Assembly: GCA_019744775.1 (NCBI GenBank)
Contig: JAIETZ010000004.1
Location: forward strand, 310,001-374,000
Reading direction: 5' to 3'
DNA: 64,000 nucleotides
Source: Candidatus Obscuribacterales bacterium
GTDB lineage: Bacteria > Cyanobacteriota > Vampirovibrionia > Obscuribacterales > Obscuribacteraceae
Below are positions 9,113 to 20,331 of this stretch, piece by piece. Each line of letters starts with the position of its first letter. Positions within the stretch are counted from its first letter, which is position 1. The notes below the pieces were generated by a model. The model was not told where the DNA came from, made no database searches, and saw nothing but the letters and a program-made list of their open reading frames with translations. Both the position numbers and the translations under genes were made by a program.

Positions 9113-9958
9113 ATGAGTACAAAACGAGACTACCTCAACCAAGGCCGCCCACTGACTCCGATGCTGTCCAGAATCATTCTGACAGCTGAGGAAGAAAACC
9201 GTCATGTCCTGAGGGTGTCGGATTTCAAGAAATTTTATCAAACCACCGACAATAATGCGCGCGCAATGATTGCTCACTTAGTGGACACAGGCTGGCTGAT
9301 ACGGCTTGGTCGTGGTTGCTACCAGCTTCAATCCGCAAAAACCGGACTTGAACCATATCCAACTGGCGATAAATTTGTTCTTGCTGGGCAATTTGCACCT
9401 GATAGTTTCATCGCTTATGGCTCCGCAGCCGAATATCACGGTCTCACCACTCAAATCTTTCAAAACGTACTGCTTGCCACTCCCAGGCGAAGAAATCAAA
9501 TGTCGCAGCCGGAACTAAAGCTGCGCTTCATTTTGATCGACTCAGAAAATTACGTTGGATTTCAAAAGACAACTAAAGCACCCGATGTAAAAGTTGCCAC
9601 CATAGAGCGAACAATTATTGACGCCATTGATCGTCCTGATCTATGTGGCGGTATTTCTGACCTGAAAGAGATCCTGAATAGGGCTCGCGGCAAAGCATCC
9701 ATTCAACGTATTCTTGAGTATTTACCAACTTATCATTCAAAATCATTGATTCAGAGGGTTGGCTATCTTTTGGAATCCGAAGGATTTGGTCTGAAGCCAG
9801 CAGAAAAGAAACGTTTATTGTCCTGGTGTCATGGCAACAAAACCTATTTGTTTTCACGCAAGCAAGCCGGAACCACCAAACTTCAGCATTATTCAAAAGA
9901 CTGGCAACTAGTAATTAATGCACCTGGTTTTTCGCCCATCCCTCACCAGAGAGATTAG
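9113..9958 (+). CDS. abiEi: AbiEi-family type IV antitoxin / autoregulator
   Basis: A 281-residue protein of the AbiEi family. The N-terminus (about residues 15-80) reads as a winged helix with a RLGRGCYQL wing, followed by the family's C-terminal domain beginning with an FIAYGSAAEYHGL segment and containing a TIERTIIDAIDRPDLCGG motif. AbiEi proteins act as DNA-binding autorepressors and as antitoxins that neutralise the AbiEii nucleotidyltransferase without direct binding (type IV logic). It is followed after 2 bases by the toxin gene, and the promoter ahead carries an inverted repeat. AbiE systems are known to abort phage infection and to stabilise mobile DNA. Confidence 0.9.
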   Translation: MSTKRDYLNQGRPLTPMLSRIILTAEEENRHVLRVSDFKKFYQTTDNNARAMIAHLVDTGWLIRLGRGCYQLQSAKTGLEPYPTGDKFVLAGQFAPDSFIAYGSAAEYHGLTTQIFQNVLLATPRRRNQMSQPELKLRFILIDSENYVGFQKTTKAPDVKVATIERTIIDAIDRPDLCGGISDLKEILNRARGKASIQRILEYLPTYHSKSLIQRVGYLLESEGFGLKPAEKKRLLSWCHGNKTYLFSRKQAGTTKLQHYSKDWQLVINAPGFSPIPHQRD

Positions 9959-9960
9959 TT

Positions 9961-10938
9961 GTGATAACAGAAAGCATTTTGGGACGCATCATTCATTCTT
10001 CCGGTGTTGATGATGAGCGGATTGTTCGGCTGGATGTGATCTCTGTATATCTTCTTCAAGCATTCAACGATGCAGGAATGTTTGATCATATGTGTTTCAA
10101 GGGTGGCAATTCGCTTCGCAAAATATTTGCCAGGAGACCAAGCAGGTTTTCGTTGGATCTTGACTTTGTTGATGCTTCATACCAACACCTGTCTGACGCT
10201 GGATTAACGGCTCATGATTATTATCGAGAGCTGCAACAACACATCGATCAACGCACGATTTACGATATTCATTGGCGTGTTGCGCCGGTGGCAGAGGAGG
10301 AATTAAATACAGATTCGGTGCGCTTTGACATTCATTATTTTATTTACGATGACAAACCCGACAGTAAATGGCAATCACGAACGGATAACTTACTAGCATT
10401 TGAATGTAGTCTTAGGCGTCCAGTCTTGCTGCCCAAAGAATTTCGCGAACTTCGCGAAGAGAGCTGGTTCAAACATCTTGAATTTACACCTTCAGCCATT
10501 CCGGTTTTGCAATTGGAAGAGGCAATGGCTGAAAAGATTCGCGCTGCCTTCCAGCGTAATAATGCCAGGGATCTTTATGATCTTTACCAGTACAACGAAC
10601 TGGTATTTAATCCGGAATTGGTTCGGATCGCAGCCGTTCTTAAATGCTGGCAAGACAGGGGTCTTTATAGCGGTCCTACCAACTTTGATCCAGTTGAGTT
10701 TTTCACAAAACTACAGCCAACGACCTACAATTGGGAACCACTAAAACATCAGGTAGCGCCTCATGCCTGGGTTGAACCAGCCAAGCTTTTGCAAACCATT
10801 ACCCAGCGATATGGTTTCTTGTCAACACTGACAGACGAGGAACAGCAACTGTGCTTAGATCGTTGGCAGAAGCGACAAGATCTTCATGACTCTCTCTGGC
10901 ACCAACTCAGAACTCAGGCAGCGGTTACCGGTCAATAA
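9961..10938 (+). CDS. abiEii: AbiEii/AbiGii-family nucleotidyltransferase toxin
   Basis: A 325-residue member of the AbiEii/AbiGii family (DNA polymerase beta-like nucleotidyltransferase fold). Motif I is KGGNSLRK (residues 47-54) and motif II RFSLDLDF (62-69), which carries the metal-binding aspartates. A helix with EEAMAEKIRAA and the RDLYDLY motif completes the four motifs used to define the family. Known members transfer nucleotides, for example to tRNA acceptor ends, and so block growth. Motif I has Asn where many relatives have Thr or Ala before Ser/Ala-Leu. The GTG start at 9961 follows the antitoxin stop by 2 bases. It converges on the permease with only 5 bases between stops. Confidence 0.9.
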   Translation: MITESILGRIIHSSGVDDERIVRLDVISVYLLQAFNDAGMFDHMCFKGGNSLRKIFARRPSRFSLDLDFVDASYQHLSDAGLTAHDYYRELQQHIDQRTIYDIHWRVAPVAEEELNTDSVRFDIHYFIYDDKPDSKWQSRTDNLLAFECSLRRPVLLPKEFRELREESWFKHLEFTPSAIPVLQLEEAMAEKIRAAFQRNNARDLYDLYQYNELVFNPELVRIAAVLKCWQDRGLYSGPTNFDPVEFFTKLQPTTYNWEPLKHQVAPHAWVEPAKLLQTITQRYGFLSTLTDEEQQLCLDRWQKRQDLHDSLWHQLRTQAAVTGQ

Positions 10939-12884: not shown

Positions 12885-13023
12885 GACTTATGACCTATTT
12901 TCAAGCAAGTAATGATACTCCTCGTCATGCCATTTGTCTTGCTTCTTAAACAAACTGAGATTAGTTGTTGACAATCAAGCCTTACCTTTTAAAAGCGGGT
13001 ACATTGGGGAAAAGGAGTCGGCC

Positions 13024-14229
13024 ATGAAATGGACCTCTTGCGCAGCTTCGCCAACCAGCAAGAAATCTTCGCTGGAAGCGCTAATTGCTGATTGCGCAAA
13101 GCAAGTAAAAAAATCGCTTGGCGGATTAACACCCGACCTTGTTTTAGGTTTCATTTCGCCGCACTTCAGCGATGATTTTGAGCGGGTACCGCAAGTCGTC
13201 TTATCCAATCTCGGACCGACAAATTTTATCGGATGCTCGGCAGGCGGAATAATAGGCGGCGGTCAAGAAATTGAGCAAACACCAGGCGTGGCTCTGGCAG
13301 CGGCTTATCTACCTGAGGTGAATCTGCGTGCCTTCCATGTCAATGAGGATGAATTGCCGGATCTCGATGACCCACCATCGCGCTGGGAGAAGTTGCTGGG
13401 TGTTGCACAGAAAGACGATCCGAGCTTTATCATTTTGCCGGATCCGTTTTCATTCAGTATTGATGTATTTATTTCCGGACTCGATTACTGTTTTCCACGT
13501 GCGATAAAAATTGGTGGTTTAGCCAGCTCCGCTAGCCGTCCGGGACAAAATGCTTTATTCATGAACGACAAGGCTTTCCGCTCAGGACTTGTCGGTGTTG
13601 CCTTAACAGGCGACATTGAAGTAGATACGGTAGTAGCGCAAGGCTGCCGTCCAATAGGCAAGCCATTAAGCGTGACGCGTTGCCAGAAGAATCTGCTCTA
13701 CGAGTTAGACAATAAACAAGCAATTATTGTCTTGCAGGACATTCTGGAAAATTTGTCATCACACGATCAAGGACTAGCGCGCAATGCTCTATTTCTCGGT
13801 GTCGTCATGGACGAATTCAAAGACACATTCAAGCCTGGAGACTTCCTCATCCGCAACATTCTCGGCATTGAACCCAACACCGGAGCCTTGGTGGTTGGCG
13901 AAATTCTACGCAATGCACGCACTGTACAATTCCACCTGCGTGATGCGGCAACTTCGGCTGATGACTTGCGCCACTTATTGAAACGCTATTGCGATGAACA
14001 TCCTGAAGGTGGACTAGGAGCGCTGTTATTTTCCTGTCTTGGTCGTGGGCAGCACCTCTATGGTCATCCCAATCATGATAGCGAATGTTTCCGCGAATAC
14101 TTAGGCGAAATTCCTTTAGGCGGCTTCTTCTGCAACGGTGAGATAGGCCCAATTGGCGGCACCACCTTTTTGCATGGCTATACTTCTTCTTTCGGCATCT
14201 TTCGAAAAAAAGCGCCGGCCAAAGCTTAG
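13024..14229 (+). CDS. FIST N/C-domain signal transduction protein
   Basis: A 401-residue protein with the FIST_N domain (about residues 20-220) followed by FIST_C (about 225-385). The FIST_N hallmarks are a DLVLGFISPHF strand, the FIGCSAGGIIGGG turn and a GVALAAAYLP strand; FIST_C shows the GALLFSCLGRG and GGFFCNGEIGPIGG-type ending. FIST domains are thought to bind small ligands, possibly amino acids, as sensor modules. Here there is no output domain, so it may act through a partner. The ATG at 13024 is preceded by AAAAGGAG, and an in-frame start 90 bases upstream lacks such a site. It leads a plus-strand run of genes reaching 18.1 kb. Confidence 0.88.
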   Translation: MKWTSCAASPTSKKSSLEALIADCAKQVKKSLGGLTPDLVLGFISPHFSDDFERVPQVVLSNLGPTNFIGCSAGGIIGGGQEIEQTPGVALAAAYLPEVNLRAFHVNEDELPDLDDPPSRWEKLLGVAQKDDPSFIILPDPFSFSIDVFISGLDYCFPRAIKIGGLASSASRPGQNALFMNDKAFRSGLVGVALTGDIEVDTVVAQGCRPIGKPLSVTRCQKNLLYELDNKQAIIVLQDILENLSSHDQGLARNALFLGVVMDEFKDTFKPGDFLIRNILGIEPNTGALVVGEILRNARTVQFHLRDAATSADDLRHLLKRYCDEHPEGGLGALLFSCLGRGQHLYGHPNHDSECFREYLGEIPLGGFFCNGEIGPIGGTTFLHGYTSSFGIFRKKAPAKA

Positions 14230-14282
14230 CTGTCCACAAGGTGTACACTATAGTTACTGCGTAGACTTGGAGGTCTGATAAG

Positions 14283-14798
14283 GTGTTTACTCGTGAAGCT
14301 TTTCTATCCAGCTTGATAGTCCTGTCACTCTCAGCGGTACAAGCTTATGCGGCTCCTGCAAAGAAGGCGGCACCGGCAAAAGCGGCACCGGCAAAAGCGG
14401 CTCCGGCAGCGGCACCGATGGCTCCTAATATGCCTATGCCAAAGACTCAAAACCTTACGCCTCAATATAACGCTTATGCAACTCAGTTGCGCAGCAAGCT
14501 AAATACCAACTGGAATTATCCGGATGGCAAAAACCATGTCACCATTCAATGCGTCTTGTCTGCCGATGGTATAGTTTCTGATTTTCAAATTTCGAGTTCA
14601 CCCAAAAGTGCAGCAGCAGAAGAAGCGGCCAATCAAGCTTTCAATCAAGCGCAACCGCTTGATTCTTTGCCGGGTAATACACCATCGGCACGTCTGACAT
14701 TGACGTTTGATTCCACATCGAGCCAACACGAAAGCTCTTCCAATTTAAAGACACATTTAGAACCGCTGGGAAAAGTCGCAGTTCCTGTTAATCCGTAG
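14283..14798 (+). CDS. Secreted protein with TonB-C-like domain
   Basis: A 171-residue exported protein. Residues 1-24 form a signal peptide ending in AYA. They are followed by a low-complexity linker of repeated AAPAK units, encoded by near-identical 15-base DNA repeats at about 14368-14415. The C-terminal part (residues 60-145) has the layout of a TonB C-terminal fold: a helix with YATQLRSKLNTNW, a strand with VTIQCVLSADGIVSDFQIS, and a helix AAAEEAANQAF. Without an N-terminal membrane helix it is not a classical TonB and is more like the stand-alone TonB-C proteins of unknown role. GTG start at 14283, preceded by GGAGG at 9 bases. Confidence 0.7.
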   Translation: MFTREAFLSSLIVLSLSAVQAYAAPAKKAAPAKAAPAKAAPAAAPMAPNMPMPKTQNLTPQYNAYATQLRSKLNTNWNYPDGKNHVTIQCVLSADGIVSDFQISSSPKSAAAEEAANQAFNQAQPLDSLPGNTPSARLTLTFDSTSSQHESSSNLKTHLEPLGKVAVPVNP

Positions 14799-14813
14799 AA
14801 TACGGAGGTCAAT

Positions 14814-16400
14814 TTGTACTTCAACTCAAATCGTACAAGGAGATCAGTTGCGTGCGGACTGATTTTGTTAGCCATGTGGGGACTAGGTCAGAATAAAGCA
14901 AAAGGTCAGATAGGCATTGAAGGCACCAGACGCCCGATGTATGCCGGTACCTGGTATGAGGCAGATCCCGAAGTTTTAAAAAATCAGTTAGATCAATTCC
15001 TAGCAAAGGCAACTCCACCTGTTGATGAACAAAGTGCCGGCATTCTGACCAAAACGAATTCACCTGTAACTTCGCCTATTACTGCAATTATCGTACCGCA
15101 CGCAGGCTATGTTTATTCCGGACAAGCAGCAGCTTACGCTTACAAGTCAGTACAAGGCAAAAACATCAAAAGAGTATTTCTTTTGGCGCCGAGCCATTAT
15201 GTTGCCTTCCAGGGTGCGGCACTGCCGACAGCAACAACTTATGCAACACCTTTGGGCGATCTCTATGTAGATCGAGATGTAGTATCGCAGTTGCAGCATT
15301 ATCCTGCCTTTAAGCGCATGCCGGACGTGCACAGAGTGGAACATGCTCTCGAAATGCAACTCGCTTTCATCCGGGAAGTACTCGGCGAAGTTAGTATTGT
15401 GCCCATTGTTATTGGTACTCTTCCGAGCAAGGCAGATGTTAAATTAACTGGTGAATTATTGCGTCGGTATATCACCAAGGACGATCTTGTTGTCGTCAGT
15501 TCGGATTTCACACACTTTGGTCCACGTTACGACTATCAACCTTTTACTACAAACATCAAAGAAAATATTCGAAAATTAGACGAGCAGGCCTATGATTACA
15601 TAAGCAAAATTGATCTGACGGGCTTTTTGGAATTTCAGGAAAAAACCAAAGATACAATATGTGGTTTCTATCCGTGTTGTGTCTTGCTGTCAATGCTCGA
15701 TACAGGCACTCACACAACCCTGCTTAATTACTACACGTCTCAAGACACCGCACAATCAGAAAGCGACAATTCAGTAAGCTATTTATCCATTGCATTTTCC
15801 GGCAAAGACTGGTCTCAACCGCAAAGCATAAAATCCGACAAACTGTCGGAAGCGGACAAACAGGCACTTCTGAAAATTGCGCGGTCAACACTTAATTCAT
15901 ATGTTGACAAAAAGACCGTACCTACACTGGCTGAATTGGGCATAGCACCAAGCAAAGCTTTACTAGAAGAAAAAGGCGCCTTTGTCACCCTCAACAAACA
16001 CAAAGAACTTAGAGGTTGCATCGGTCATATCTGGCCGTTAAAACCATTGTGGCAATCGGTACAAGAAAACGCTGTTTCAGCATGCTCTGTCGACTATCGA
16101 TTTGATTCGGTCAAACCGGAAGAGCTGAAAGATATCGAGGTGGAAATTAGCGTACTATCTAAGCCACGTCCCATTTCCAGTTACAAGGAAATCGTGCTGG
16201 GGCGCGACGGCATTGTTCTAGCTAAGAATGGCAAGCAGTCGGTTTTCTTACCTTTTGTCGCACCGCAATTCGGCTGGACACTTGATGAAACTCTTACCCA
16301 ATTGTCTAAGAAAGCAGGACTCGAGCCCGATGACTGGAAAGAAGGTGCCCACTTCGATGTATTTCAAGCCGAGGTGTTTGAGGAAGGAAAGCATAACTAG
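14814..16400 (+). CDS. Exported MEMO1-AMMECR1 fusion (AmmeMemoRadiSam proteins B and A)
   Basis: A 528-residue fusion. Residues 1-32 read as a signal peptide (basic start, then ACGLILLAMWGLG). Residues 35-325 form a MEMO1-like domain, related to extradiol dioxygenase LigB, with the PMYAGTWYEAD start, the IIVPHAGYVYSG motif and the LAPSHYV strand. Residues 345-525 form an AMMECR1 domain with the highly conserved LRGCIGH motif and an SACSVDYRF segment. In many bacteria these two proteins and a radical SAM enzyme are neighbours (AmmeMemoRadiSam system); here A and B are fused, apparently exported, and no radical SAM gene is in the window. The start is a TTG at 14814 after GGAGG; an ATG at 14874 would remove most of the signal peptide. 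Confidence 0.88.
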   Translation: MYFNSNRTRRSVACGLILLAMWGLGQNKAKGQIGIEGTRRPMYAGTWYEADPEVLKNQLDQFLAKATPPVDEQSAGILTKTNSPVTSPITAIIVPHAGYVYSGQAAAYAYKSVQGKNIKRVFLLAPSHYVAFQGAALPTATTYATPLGDLYVDRDVVSQLQHYPAFKRMPDVHRVEHALEMQLAFIREVLGEVSIVPIVIGTLPSKADVKLTGELLRRYITKDDLVVVSSDFTHFGPRYDYQPFTTNIKENIRKLDEQAYDYISKIDLTGFLEFQEKTKDTICGFYPCCVLLSMLDTGTHTTLLNYYTSQDTAQSESDNSVSYLSIAFSGKDWSQPQSIKSDKLSEADKQALLKIARSTLNSYVDKKTVPTLAELGIAPSKALLEEKGAFVTLNKHKELRGCIGHIWPLKPLWQSVQENAVSACSVDYRFDSVKPEELKDIEVEISVLSKPRPISSYKEIVLGRDGIVLAKNGKQSVFLPFVAPQFGWTLDETLTQLSKKAGLEPDDWKEGAHFDVFQAEVFEEGKHN

Positions 16401-17765
16401 ATGAAATACTTCCCCCTACTTTTATTTTGCCTTCTTGTATTGTCTACAAGCCTAGCAAGTGCCGATGAACCTAACCCTAAAACCATTGTGGAAGCACAAG
16501 AAGTACGTGCGCTGCCAGGCAAATTAGACAAAGTGCCCGTATTCAATTCAAACAGTCCGGAAGTAGTGACTAATGAAGGCATTTTGCTATCCACCTTCCC
16601 CAAAGAAGGCAAAAGTTTTCCTGATGCACATTTGAATTATCCGCTGACAGGAAGATTCGATATCTTCACTCACCACATAGCAAAAACAGTAACTGAAAAT
16701 GAAATCAAAACACTTTATCAAGCTCTTTTGATTCACAACAACTCAGATAAGAAAACAACAGTTCATATTTTGCAAATAGCTAGTTATCTAAGTCAACCGG
16801 ATGCGCCTTTTGTGCCGTTACAAGACTACGCGGATAATACTGACGGCAACGTATTTGCCGGACCGGGTGATCGCGTGACCAGCGAACTCCTGCGAGAAAC
16901 CACAAGCACTCCTGGCAAAATCATTCTAGCTCCGCACGAGACCGCTGTTCTTGCTTGCTGGGCAATACCTGTCACAGATCTGCAACCTCATTTAAACGGC
17001 AGATCGGCTTTGTTTAAACTAAAGTCTAATGGGCCTGTTTCCATCGCTGATCTGGCAACATTTGCCAAAGTAGACAGCAATCATCAAGATGTTGCGCCAA
17101 ATTTAGACGATTGGTTAAAAGTACTAAATACAATGGATCTTTCAACACCAAGAGAAAAGGCGGCAACACCAACTCATGCAAGACCACTAATTTATGGCAG
17201 GGTAGCAGGAGTTGCCGAAGGCGATACTTGGTTGTGCAAGCCGAAGAAAATTCAAGTCCCGGAATTGGGCAAAGCCCTATCGTATGCAATTAGCTCAATA
17301 GACGGCGGTACCTGGGGTACAGAGCAAATTCAAAGCGCACCGCTTTTAGCTCGGTATCCCGACACAGCCTTTCAAGCTCACGGCAATTACGGAATCAAAT
17401 ACGATTTAACATTGCCATTGCATAATCCCGCTCCAACAGCGCGTACTGTAGCCGTTACGTTTCAAACTCCATTGAAGAGCGAGAAGAAAGAAGGACAACT
17501 AAGTTTTCTTTATCCTGTGCCGAACAAGATTTTCTTTCGGGGCACATTGCGCTTGAGCTACAAAGATGACGACGGACAAGAGCAGACAAAATATGTCCAT
17601 ATAGTTTCAAGACGTGGGCAACAAGGACAGCCGCTTATAACCTTGAAAATGAAACCCGGATCAACGCGCACTGTGAGAGTCGAATTCCTCTATCCCCCGG
17701 ACTCAACACCACCGCAAGTGTTGACATTCAAGACGCTGCCGGCTGAAACAGCCGGCGCTCAATAA
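16401..17765 (+). CDS. Secreted DUF3370-domain protein
   Basis: A 454-residue exported protein with a signal peptide (residues 1-22, ending in ASA) and a DUF3370 domain over nearly the whole mature chain. The recognisable start is the AQEVRALPGKLDKVPVFNS motif near residues 34-52, followed by a GDRVTSELLR segment and an NYGIKYDL segment around residue 330. The family is known mainly from cyanobacteria and has no established function; it is predicted to be periplasmic or surface located. Its ATG directly abuts the stop of the MEMO-AMMECR1 gene with no gap, so the two are cotranslated. It supports a cyanobacterial-lineage origin for the window. Confidence 0.85.
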   Translation: MKYFPLLLFCLLVLSTSLASADEPNPKTIVEAQEVRALPGKLDKVPVFNSNSPEVVTNEGILLSTFPKEGKSFPDAHLNYPLTGRFDIFTHHIAKTVTENEIKTLYQALLIHNNSDKKTTVHILQIASYLSQPDAPFVPLQDYADNTDGNVFAGPGDRVTSELLRETTSTPGKIILAPHETAVLACWAIPVTDLQPHLNGRSALFKLKSNGPVSIADLATFAKVDSNHQDVAPNLDDWLKVLNTMDLSTPREKAATPTHARPLIYGRVAGVAEGDTWLCKPKKIQVPELGKALSYAISSIDGGTWGTEQIQSAPLLARYPDTAFQAHGNYGIKYDLTLPLHNPAPTARTVAVTFQTPLKSEKKEGQLSFLYPVPNKIFFRGTLRLSYKDDDGQEQTKYVHIVSRRGQQGQPLITLKMKPGSTRTVRVEFLYPPDSTPPQVLTFKTLPAETAGAQ

Positions 17766-17776
17766 GGAGCCACACA

Positions 17777-18103
17777 ATGGCTGATACGCTGAGAGAATAC
17801 AAGAATTTGATTGTCGCTTATCTGCGCGATTACGAATCCTCCCGTATGGCTGGTGATTCAGATAAGCTCAGACGATTGACCGAAACACCTGACGACCTGC
17901 TCTTGCAAAAGTGGTTATGGATAGGCACCATCGTAGGCGCAATCGCCTGCTTCGGCATTATGTGGCCTGTTGCCGCACTTCTTCTGGCACCTTTTGTGAC
18001 TTCGTTTATCATGGAGCCGTTGTGGATGATCATAAAGTTCGCCATGGGCGTGACTTTGATTTTATTTTGCTCGGCTATCTACGTAACCTTTAAAAAGAGC
18101 TGA
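17777..18103 (+). CDS. Hypothetical small membrane protein
   Basis: A 108-residue protein of unknown family. The first 45 residues are charged and helical (a DTLREYKNLIVAYLRDYESS start), followed by two hydrophobic segments at about residues 47-72 and 80-105. It starts 11 bases after the DUF3370 stop, with AAGGAG in between, and is probably the last gene of that operon. Its 3' end overlaps the convergent DUF1156 gene by 25 bases. Confidence 0.65.
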   Translation: MADTLREYKNLIVAYLRDYESSRMAGDSDKLRRLTETPDDLLLQKWLWIGTIVGAIACFGIMWPVAALLLAPFVTSFIMEPLWMIIKFAMGVTLILFCSAIYVTFKKS

Positions 18104-20331
18104 GCTATAACCAACTTTATGGCTTTTGCTTGCGGCATGACTGTACCATCTTCTTCAAGCACATTCTTAAAGCTCGACAGAATTTTAGCGCCCTCTAGAA
18201 GGCTTAGCTGCAATCTATCCACTTGCGCATGACCACTCGTCTCCAGCTCGGCGATTCTTGCCGGCAGTTCGGCGCGGAGTTTAAGGCATAGATCGCCGGC
18301 ACTTATATTTGGGGCGGTGGCAGGACGTTTTCTAATAATCAAAAGCAAGGATGAAGCTAAACACTTACTACCACCGCGAGCAACCATTCTTGTTGAGCGC
18401 TCAGTAGCCAATGTCCAATAAGTAGTGAGCATCCAGCCTGACGTAAGCAGTGATTCAAGCATTGCTTCCCAGCCACTGAAATCATCTTTTGGATTGAAAG
18501 CATAGAAAACAGCTGTAGGATATTTTGAGTCGGAAATACTTTGTATGCCGGCAAAAGAATCAGTGAGACCATCGATAAAATGCTTGCGTGCCTCTTTTTC
18601 ATCGCCATCGAACCGATGAGGTGCCACGACGAGTTCCTCATTCTTAGGAACCAAATGATCGGAAAACAATTCCCTATGAATCCCGGACAAAGAACGTTTC
18701 AGCCACACATAGAAGAAATCAGAAAGGTCGGCATAACTTACATAGTTGTAGTAAGGTGGATCAGTTACTACTACAGCCGAACTTGTTGAACCCTGGCAGT
18801 CAACGGAATTCAATTGACGTATTACACTGGTTTTTTGCGTTTGAGAGGAGCGCGGCAAATTATTAACAGCTGATGCCACCCACTCACTTGCGGTGGCGAT
18901 TGTAAGCGAACCGTCAAGTATATTTGCCTCGGCAAAGTCCCAGGTCATTTGCATTGCTTGGCGTCCAAATACTTGAGCGACATTTTGATTGGTTGTATTC
19001 CAGGGATTTAAAAGAGTTGAATATCTAACTAAATGATTGACGGCAAATGCCAGATAAGTTGCAACTGCATCAGCGAAAGCCGCGAGTCCCGATCCACCCG
19101 ATTCCAGAGTAGTGCAATCATCAGGCAACTTCCACATGCCCGATTGCATAACATGAGCTTTCACTTCTTCGACTAAATCGCTGAGTACGCATAAAGAAAG
19201 AAGTTGACGCGGCATAAAATAATCGCTGAAAGTTTTAAACCCATAAGCACGTCCCTGCGCGTTGCTGGCAAATGTTCCACGAGTTTTTTCATTGGGAATA
19301 TTGTTAGTCCGGCGATAAATGTCTAGAGCTTTTGCGCAAGCCTCATTCAATTCGGTCATCTTAGTCAATGAGTACGGCAAATATTTACGACCACGCTTGT
19401 TCTGAACAACAGTTGCTAGAGGCAAAAACCCCAACTGACTGTTCTCGGCCTGCAAATGAATGTACTTGCCCTTCACAACTTCGCTGCAAACCAAACACTG
19501 GAAAGCCGCTTTTGCCGCTTTACCTGTTTCCAAAATCAAACGGGTGCCGGCTGCCAGGCGCGGTTTAAGTTCGTCATCAGCCTTGCCATGAATTATCTCA
19601 AAACCAACTTTTCCATCCTCAACAAGCGGATTGATCCAGGCTTGCTTACCGGCTTTCGTACAAAGCCAAAATTTACTAATTAGTGGGACGTCGACGACAC
19701 AAGTCGGATTTGGACATTTGACCGAACGACAGTAGAGCCAGGCAATAACTTTTTGACCTTCGTTAGGATAGAGATAATCAAGCCTTCTTTTACTTTCCTC
19801 TTGCATCCAATTGCCATAAAAGCTAATTGCCTCAGTAAGTGATGATCCCTGCGCGAATTTTTCCGGAATCTCGATTAGGGCTTTGTTTATTATCACTGCC
19901 AGAGGATTAATGTCAGAACCGTGTGCTTCCAGCCCCAAGCGTTTCGCCTCTAACGGAATGGAACCACCACCGGCAAAAGGATCATAAATGCGCGGTGGCA
20001 TGCCGCCTGTTGCCTTTTCGATTTCCAACCGAGCTTGAGCGAAAACCTCATCATCAGATGCGTTTGCACCAATAAGAGTTTCCATGATGGAGAGCAATCT
20101 ATCTCTTTCACGGCTTTGCTCATCAAGGCTTGGAAAACGCTCAGGGCAACTTGCCGGATCATCTACTAAGGACGCAAATAATATCGCTCGGCAAACAGCT
20201 AAAGGTTTGCGCGACCACCACAGGTGAAGCGAGCGAGGATGCCCTTTTAGAAAGGGATTTTTGTCCTTTTGAGCGGCAATATTCAAACTATTAAGCGGAA
20301 GCGTAACCTCAATTAGCTTTTGTCTCGACAT
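18079..20331 (-). CDS. DUF1156-domain DNA (adenine-N6-type) methyltransferase
   Basis: A 750-residue protein. Residues 1-60 form the DUF1156 domain with its HPRSLHLWWSRKP motif (31-42). The AdoMet-binding motif I is DPFAGGGSIPLEA (117-129), and the catalytic motif IV is DPPYY (524-528), as in amino-methyltransferases that modify adenine or cytosine. Two Cys pairs (near CRSVKCPNPTC and CLVC) suggest a zinc ribbon inserted between the motifs. DUF1156 methylases are often found with a DUF499 ATPase, a helicase and a phospholipase D nuclease in anti-phage islands; none of these is near, so here it stands alone. The start ATG at 20331 is clear; a ribosome-binding site is weak. Confidence 0.87.
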   Translation of the reverse strand: MSRQKLIEVTLPLNSLNIAAQKDKNPFLKGHPRSLHLWWSRKPLAVCRAILFASLVDDPASCPERFPSLDEQSRERDRLLSIMETLIGANASDDEVFAQARLEIEKATGGMPPRIYDPFAGGGSIPLEAKRLGLEAHGSDINPLAVIINKALIEIPEKFAQGSSLTEAISFYGNWMQEESKRRLDYLYPNEGQKVIAWLYCRSVKCPNPTCVVDVPLISKFWLCTKAGKQAWINPLVEDGKVGFEIIHGKADDELKPRLAAGTRLILETGKAAKAAFQCLVCSEVVKGKYIHLQAENSQLGFLPLATVVQNKRGRKYLPYSLTKMTELNEACAKALDIYRRTNNIPNEKTRGTFASNAQGRAYGFKTFSDYFMPRQLLSLCVLSDLVEEVKAHVMQSGMWKLPDDCTTLESGGSGLAAFADAVATYLAFAVNHLVRYSTLLNPWNTTNQNVAQVFGRQAMQMTWDFAEANILDGSLTIATASEWVASAVNNLPRSSQTQKTSVIRQLNSVDCQGSTSSAVVVTDPPYYNYVSYADLSDFFYVWLKRSLSGIHRELFSDHLVPKNEELVVAPHRFDGDEKEARKHFIDGLTDSFAGIQSISDSKYPTAVFYAFNPKDDFSGWEAMLESLLTSGWMLTTYWTLATERSTRMVARGGSKCLASSLLLIIRKRPATAPNISAGDLCLKLRAELPARIAELETSGHAQVDRLQLSLLEGAKILSSFKNVLEEDGTVMPQAKAIKLVIAQLFLKVT

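Follow-up and report, generated by a model that had tools for sequence, protein, structure and literature searches.

Introduction

The AmmeMemoRadiSam system is represented by three curated models, for the AMMECR1-like protein A (TIGR04335), the MEMO-like protein B (TIGR04336) and a radical SAM enzyme (TIGR04337), and adjacency of the three genes is common but is not required by the models. Conservation of both MEMO and AMMECR1 extends from archaea to humans, and neither has a known reaction. Radical SAM chemistry requires SAM and a strong reductant, and the enzymes that perform it are generally regarded as intracellular. Burroughs et al. 2019, said to be the main paper on the Memo families and one that may describe export, reportedly suggested that Memo proteins modify nucleotide bases and isoprenoids.

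The best structural reference is human MEMO1 (PDB 7kq8, 7l5c), a chain solved without an AMMECR1 domain, which is described as cytosolic, binds Fe and Cu with H49, H81 and C244 as metal ligands, and was not found to have dioxygenase activity (PMC11081632). The AMMECR1 structures 1zq7, 1vaj and 1wsc are likewise of stand-alone proteins. Here we analyze a stretch of 64,000 nucleotides (the window) from a member of the Obscuribacteraceae in which the two domains are fused behind a signal-peptide-like N-terminus. The fusion and the protein families themselves are already known. In the open-licence literature, outside of which most subscription journals lie, we found no report that any AmmeMemoRadiSam part or any radical SAM enzyme is exported or works outside the cytoplasm, and none that connects AMMECR1 with a signal peptide or twin-arginine signal, with lipoproteins or with a spermidine synthase.

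Start Site and Predicted Export of the Fusion

MEMO and AMMECR1 are fused in a single ORF of 528 residues at 14814-16400 on the forward strand, which has a TTG start preceded at a distance of five bases by a GGAGG ribosome-binding site (14804-14808). The MEMO domain spans residues 41-326 (14934-15791; PF01875, 210 bits) and has human MEMO1 as its best PDB match, and the AMMECR1 domain spans residues 353-522 (15870-16379; PF01871, 158 bits). The fusion also exceeds the cut-offs of both TIGR04336 (222.8 bits, cut-off 26) and TIGR04335 (159.9 bits, cut-off 99). The first-pass annotation of this DNA had proposed a fusion of proteins B and A and a TTG start leading into an apparent signal peptide; the fusion is borne out, and the second proposal is supported by the spacing of the GGAGG site and by the character of residues 1-31 (14814-14906). 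These residues have an n-region with R7, R9 and R10, an h-region at about residues 12-24 (VACGLILLAMWG) and a possible cleavage site AKG/Q, the slash marking the junction. The charged n-region, hydrophobic core and small residues at -3 and -1 expected of a Sec signal peptidase I substrate are thus all present by sequence and by our own heuristic, and export is predicted, although the h-region is short and contains W and G, which counts against it. In an AlphaFold2 model, residues 1-35 have pLDDT values below 50 and form one helix (residues 8-24) outside both well-modeled domains.

The relatives of the fusion carry similar junctions. Read by eye, a small residue followed by Gln occurs as AKG/Q in L024, GYA/Q in L026, GEA/Q in L027 and GDA/Q in L028, and junctions of the same type are IWG/Q in L029, FWA/Q in L035, SRA/Q in L037 and AFS/Q in L048, with the Gln not kept in L033 and L042. 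An alternative is that translation begins at the ATG at 14874 (Met21 of the fusion), or that the hydrophobic residues are a mere vestige, the protein being cytosolic in either case. TTG is the less common start, and several family members in the same operon have no signal (e.g. L030, L031, L039-L041 and L045-L047). We consider this improbable, however, as GGAGG lies at the usual distance from the TTG and inspection of the sequence ahead of the ATG revealed no GGAGG-type site, the sister genome (L025) has the same GGAGG/TTG arrangement, and diverged relatives keep signal-like upstream sequence. Start site, N-terminus, junctions in relatives and the wide survey described below therefore all speak for the predicted export of the fusion.

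The N-terminus also contains a twin arginine (TRRSVAC), and we weighed whether the fusion is a Tat substrate with which the radical SAM enzyme, itself signal-less, could be exported as a hitchhiker. The RR lies ahead of the h-region, TatC is encoded in the window genome, and hitchhiking is known for other Tat complexes. Nonetheless, the RR is shared by the window protein and its sister but absent from the next relatives (L026-L029), and the residues that follow it fit the usual Tat consensus poorly; we hold this route to be unlikely.

Export signals were called throughout with our own heuristic script; resemblance to lipoproteins, like the junction motifs, was judged by eye. The background of the caller was 42/1980, or 154/2760 with a longer search; for tier 1 calls it was 73/2820 (2.6%) for fusions and 39/2440 for radical SAM proteins. 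The background of the weak tier was high (341/2820 including tier 1), and weak calls were not scored as positive.

Fold and Metal Ligands

The AlphaFold2 model of the fusion, built from a 35-row alignment, has a mean pLDDT of 88.4 and a pTM of 0.68, the latter leaving the relative placement of the two domains unsure. Foldseek matched it first to human MEMO1 (7kq8, E 1.1e-27, 32% identity), to the AMMECR1 structures, which correspond to its C-terminal domain, and then to extradiol dioxygenases at ranks 11-30. The metal ligands of human MEMO1 are kept, with His96 (15099-15101) as the counterpart of H49, His128 (15195-15197) of H81 and Cys283 (15660-15662) of C244. In a 16-row alignment (A1) H96, H128, D231, H234, C283 and the RGCIG motif of AMMECR1, which contains Cys402 (16017-16019), are all invariant. 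Among the 49 signal-bearing wide fusions aligned from the best 80 of 585 relatives, Cys402 is kept in 48 and the position of Cys283 is Cys in 46 and Asp in 3. The class III extradiol dioxygenases (DesB, 2-aminophenol 1,6-dioxygenase and DOPA dioxygenase) match the fusion at the level of the fold, with 10-14% identity. The dioxygenase fold of the LigB-type enzymes is thus present in the fusion, whereas the alignment lacks their 2-His-1-carboxylate iron site, Cys283 standing in place of the carboxylate ligand.

The Radical SAM Partner and Distribution in the Family

The window genome (G000; 4.10 Mb in 13 contigs) encodes one MEMO, two AMMECR1 and one TIGR04337 radical SAM enzyme, and thus has all three AmmeMemoRadiSam families over their curated cut-offs. 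The radical SAM enzyme (579.6 bits, cut-off 220) is at G000:C3:181225-182262, unlinked to the fusion on contig C4. The absence of a radical SAM partner, which the first-pass annotation had claimed, is hence ruled out by this match elsewhere in the genome. None of the 18 radical SAM proteins found in G000, the AmmeMemoRadiSam enzyme included, has an export signal. Compared with the known AmmeMemoRadiSam system, A and B are here fused with a predicted export signal and the radical SAM gene is unlinked and plain (without a signal). The second AMMECR1 of the genome (L023:1210-1929, G000:C2:359833) is diverged, with RACWG in place of RGCIG, and it has a putative signal of its own. Within the group of second AMMECR1 proteins, orthologues of which occur through the family, the heuristic calls a signal in 14 of 21 rows, L023 among them.

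We extended the comparison to 39 genomes of the family and order (G000-G038), among them the named family member Obscuribacter phosphatis (L102). MEMO was found in 36 of these, counting G021, where it appears as two adjacent ORFs, and G037, where the contig ends within it. TIGR04337 exceeds its cut-off in 36 as well, and the genomes missing one or the other include incomplete ones. The two occur together in 33 of the 39 genomes and are on different contigs in all 33. The signal on the fusion is patchy, being called by the heuristic in 15 of 40 class-and-family rows, which counts against export, and on a tree of 39 fusions the signal label requires nine changes, eight of them forced. Repeated gain or loss of signals among orthologues is a known phenomenon (PMC5952966). 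The call for L043 is probably false, and those for L051, L053 and L054 may extend into the upstream TonB_2 gene. Where a family fusion has no signal, the TonB_2 stop often lies too close to the MEMO domain to leave room for one (34-64 bases in several rows). In two of the genomes (L061, G016:C14; L062, G024:C15) the MEMO domain ends ORFs of 903 and 935 residues with hydrophobic stretches ahead of it.

By the same heuristic, none of 31 radical SAM enzymes of the family has a signal. Cyanobacteriota fusions from outside the window's order lacked a signal in 21 of 21 cases of the phylum sample. Six class-level genomes have a fusion, and in five of them (G041, G046, G052, G056 and G057; the sixth is G047) no TIGR04337 match exceeds the cut-off, which indicates that MEMO and AMMECR1 domains can occur without the radical SAM enzyme.

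Fused Loci and Signal-Bearing Radical SAM Enzymes Beyond the Family

A wider sample was assembled from the best 80 of 585 relatives, which were found with the window protein's own alignment, thereby biasing the sample toward that protein. All 80 loci, from many bacterial phyla and some archaea, contain MEMO-AMMECR1 fusions. The first-pass annotation had described the AmmeMemoRadiSam proteins as separate and cytosolic, which is too narrow a description given that these 80 loci are fused and most carry predicted signals. The search for fused, exported versions that it proposed yielded N-terminal export signals on 50 of 77 fusions from these best 80 of 585, with six weak calls and 21 without a call, compared with 73/2820 for internal controls; the denominator excludes L101 and L102, duplicates of family loci that are counted there, and L124, which is cut off. 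A rule that fused proteins are exported does not hold, since the Cyanobacteriota fusions from outside the window's order mentioned above are plain and those of Kiritimatiellae/Verrucomicrobia-like members of the best 80 of 585 are mostly so.

In the same sample a signal was also called on 23 of the 42 complete radical SAM enzymes encoded in the same locus as the fusion (controls 39/2440), with one weak call (L137), 18 without a call and L176 left out as cut off. The 23 comprise 20 with RR, two Sec-like and one lipobox-like N-terminus. The TIGR01409 model (TAT_signal_seq) matched 11 of 33 signal-bearing radical SAM N-termini and one of 68 plain ones (p = 1.1e-5), the plain control of this comparison being 68 of the 89 plain radical SAM rows (A5; 85 of the 89 in A3). 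The radical SAM profile was first built from two rows and then rebuilt from 74, and every one of the 131 radical SAM rows checked, including 33 with a signal, keeps the CX3CX2C motif. In a tree of 98 radical SAM rows, which takes in the window genome's L020 and five of the 30 loci L071-L100, leaves out the phylum sample and drops matches shorter than 260 positions, 32 of the 33 signal-bearing enzymes fall into one clade of 38 rows (SH-aLRT 86, under the starred level). Six members of the clade have no signal call, and the enzyme of the window genome lies outside it.

Fusions predicted to be exported accompany signal-bearing radical SAM enzymes in 19 of 23 tier 1 calls compared with 10 of 18 otherwise (best 80 of 585), which is a trend only (p = 0.09). 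TatC is present in 23 of 24 genomes with Tat-type radical SAM enzymes and in 17 of 19 with plain ones (p = 0.58), and because of this similarity its presence is no evidence for export. It is more often absent where the radical SAM signal is Sec- or lipobox-like (4/8 versus 1/24 with RR, p = 0.009), a contrast to which genome incompleteness could contribute and in which the sole RR case lacking TatC (L151) has a poor Tat motif. In the Prevotellaceae the combination seen in the window genome, a signal-bearing fusion and a plain radical SAM enzyme, is predicted by the heuristic within one locus (e.g. L159, L162, L164 and L180).

Several genomes appear to have two sets of these proteins. TIGR04337 exceeds its cut-off in 41 of the 44 genomes reached through the named loci. 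Eight genomes (G248, G260, G262, G264, G270, G272, G281 and G286) have an unfused MEMO besides a fused one, and in all eight the unfused protein is plain and the fused one signal-bearing; left out of this count are G282 and G255, where the apparent unfused row is a cut copy and a stretch of the fused gene, respectively, and G271, the unfused MEMO of which did not enter the comparison. Similarly, among 14 clearly listed genomes that encode a signal-bearing radical SAM enzyme, 13 have a plain copy as well, the exception being G287 with a single copy; G267 also has a plain copy and is not counted here, its signal call being doubtful.

An altiarchaeote (L168:1704-5368, forward strand) has an operon of, in this order, tatA, tatC, a Tat-tagged radical SAM enzyme and a fused MEMO-AMMECR1, the N-terminus of the latter being lipobox-like and weak by the heuristic caller. 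A second archaeon (L155) has tatC inside the locus on the opposite strand. Divergent from the L168 operon is a gene (L168:6715-8871, reverse strand) for a membrane protein with a spermidine synthase domain. Relatives of it occur in 20 of the best 80 loci of 585, namely in 13 of 23 with a signal-bearing radical SAM enzyme and in four of 19 with a plain or weak one (p = 0.03). Clustering of all neighbor ORFs was blurred by wrong-frame ORFs in high-GC loci, and this was the one neighbor family examined. The window's genome yielded no such relative. In six Tat-tagged radical SAM enzymes (L130, L136, L152, L156, L158 and L167) a single conserved CxxCH lies about 22 residues ahead of the first cysteine motif and may serve to bind heme c or some other metal. 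Two Bacteroidales loci (L146 and L170) have a single ORF in which MEMO, AMMECR1 and radical SAM parts follow a signal-like stretch; an ATG lies just ahead of the MEMO domain and no TatC was found in either genome, so that with the start unsure the export of the radical SAM part is doubtful.

A Pathway Possibly Divided by the Membrane

We propose that the window protein is the exported arm of an AmmeMemoRadiSam pathway, the radical SAM arm of which is cytosolic, and consider this to be reasonably probable from comparative sequence evidence. The signal peptide (about residues 1-31) would carry the chain across the cytoplasmic membrane by Sec and would probably be cleaved at AKG/Q. Outside, the MEMO domain with its extradiol dioxygenase fold would hold Fe(II) or Cu(I) through His96, His128 and Cys283 and carry out a redox step, and the AMMECR1 domain, with Cys402 in RGCIG, would perform a coupled step. 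In this organism the pathway's radical SAM enzyme would be separate and cytosolic; in related systems it appears to be exported as well, mainly by Tat. We counted in favor of this proposal the start site and domains, the residues invariant in A1, the junctions, the signal of L023, the co-occurrence in 33/39 genomes, the wide sample and the eight genome pairs.

The main alternative is that the fusion is exported but has no functional tie to the radical SAM enzyme; it might, for instance, handle iron or copper in the periplasm. The two genes are on separate contigs in 33/33 genomes of the family and order that have both, the radical SAM enzyme is plain in 31/31 family rows, class-level genomes have a fusion and no radical SAM enzyme over the cut-off, and human MEMO1, which uses the same ligands, binds Fe and Cu with no dioxygenase activity found (PMC11081632). 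We regard independence as unlikely, although by no means negligible, since 33 of 39 genomes of the family and order have the fusion together with the radical SAM enzyme and the genes are linked in 43 of the 80 named loci (best 80 of 585), in addition to two triple fusions and one partial gene.

If, as we propose, the pathway is divided by the membrane, its substrate or an intermediate must cross the membrane or lie in it. The substrate in the window organism would then probably be found on both sides of the membrane, the split implying a substrate or intermediate that can be reached from both, and export would narrow the search to substrates and metals available outside the cytoplasm. A membrane lipid would fit a split pathway of this kind and the proposal attributed to Burroughs et al. 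2019.

In a wider sense, we tentatively suggest, as a claim that we see as close to balanced but slightly on the doubtful side, that AmmeMemoRadiSam has an extracytoplasmic branch whose radical SAM enzyme would itself work outside, exported folded by Tat, beside an exported MEMO-AMMECR1 fusion. Some lineages would add CxxCH and the membrane spermidine-synthase-like neighbor, which may have to do with SAM supply or product, and the window organism would have the MEMO-AMMECR1 arm only. If the Tat-tagged enzymes are truly exported, radical SAM chemistry would take place where no supply of SAM or reductant is known, and bacteria with both plain and predicted exported sets make such chemistry directly testable.

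Neighboring Genes

The fusion follows a FIST protein gene (FIST_N + FIST_C by profile match; 12934-14229, forward strand), present in 25 of 31 family loci, and a gene for a putatively exported protein with a TonB_2 C-terminal domain (14283-14798, forward strand), present in 29 of 31 with a signal call in 26 of the 29. The stop of the latter is 15 bases ahead of the fusion, and this FIST sensor and TonB_2 pair (12934-14798) is kept upstream of the fusion across the family. Directly abutting the fusion downstream is a DUF3370 protein with a signal-like N-terminus (16401-17765, forward strand), followed by a small hydrophobic, probably membrane, protein (17777-18103, forward strand) with relatives in 14 of 31 family loci. 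The placement of the fusion between TonB-C-like and secreted DUF3370 genes, as first described, is thus correct. The further suggestion that the operon as a whole works outside the cytosol is not confirmed, since the conserved FIST neighbor has no obvious signal at its N-terminus by eye and DUF3370 is limited to the window's genus (L024 and L025), which also rules it out as a conserved partner of the fusion.

Elsewhere in the window, a DUF1156 methyltransferase-like protein is encoded at 18079-20331 on the reverse strand, with a weak likeness to the anti-phage-associated NF042963 (136 bits, cut-off 1000), and two adjacent ORFs at 9113-10938 resemble an AbiEi/AbiEii-type toxin-antitoxin pair.
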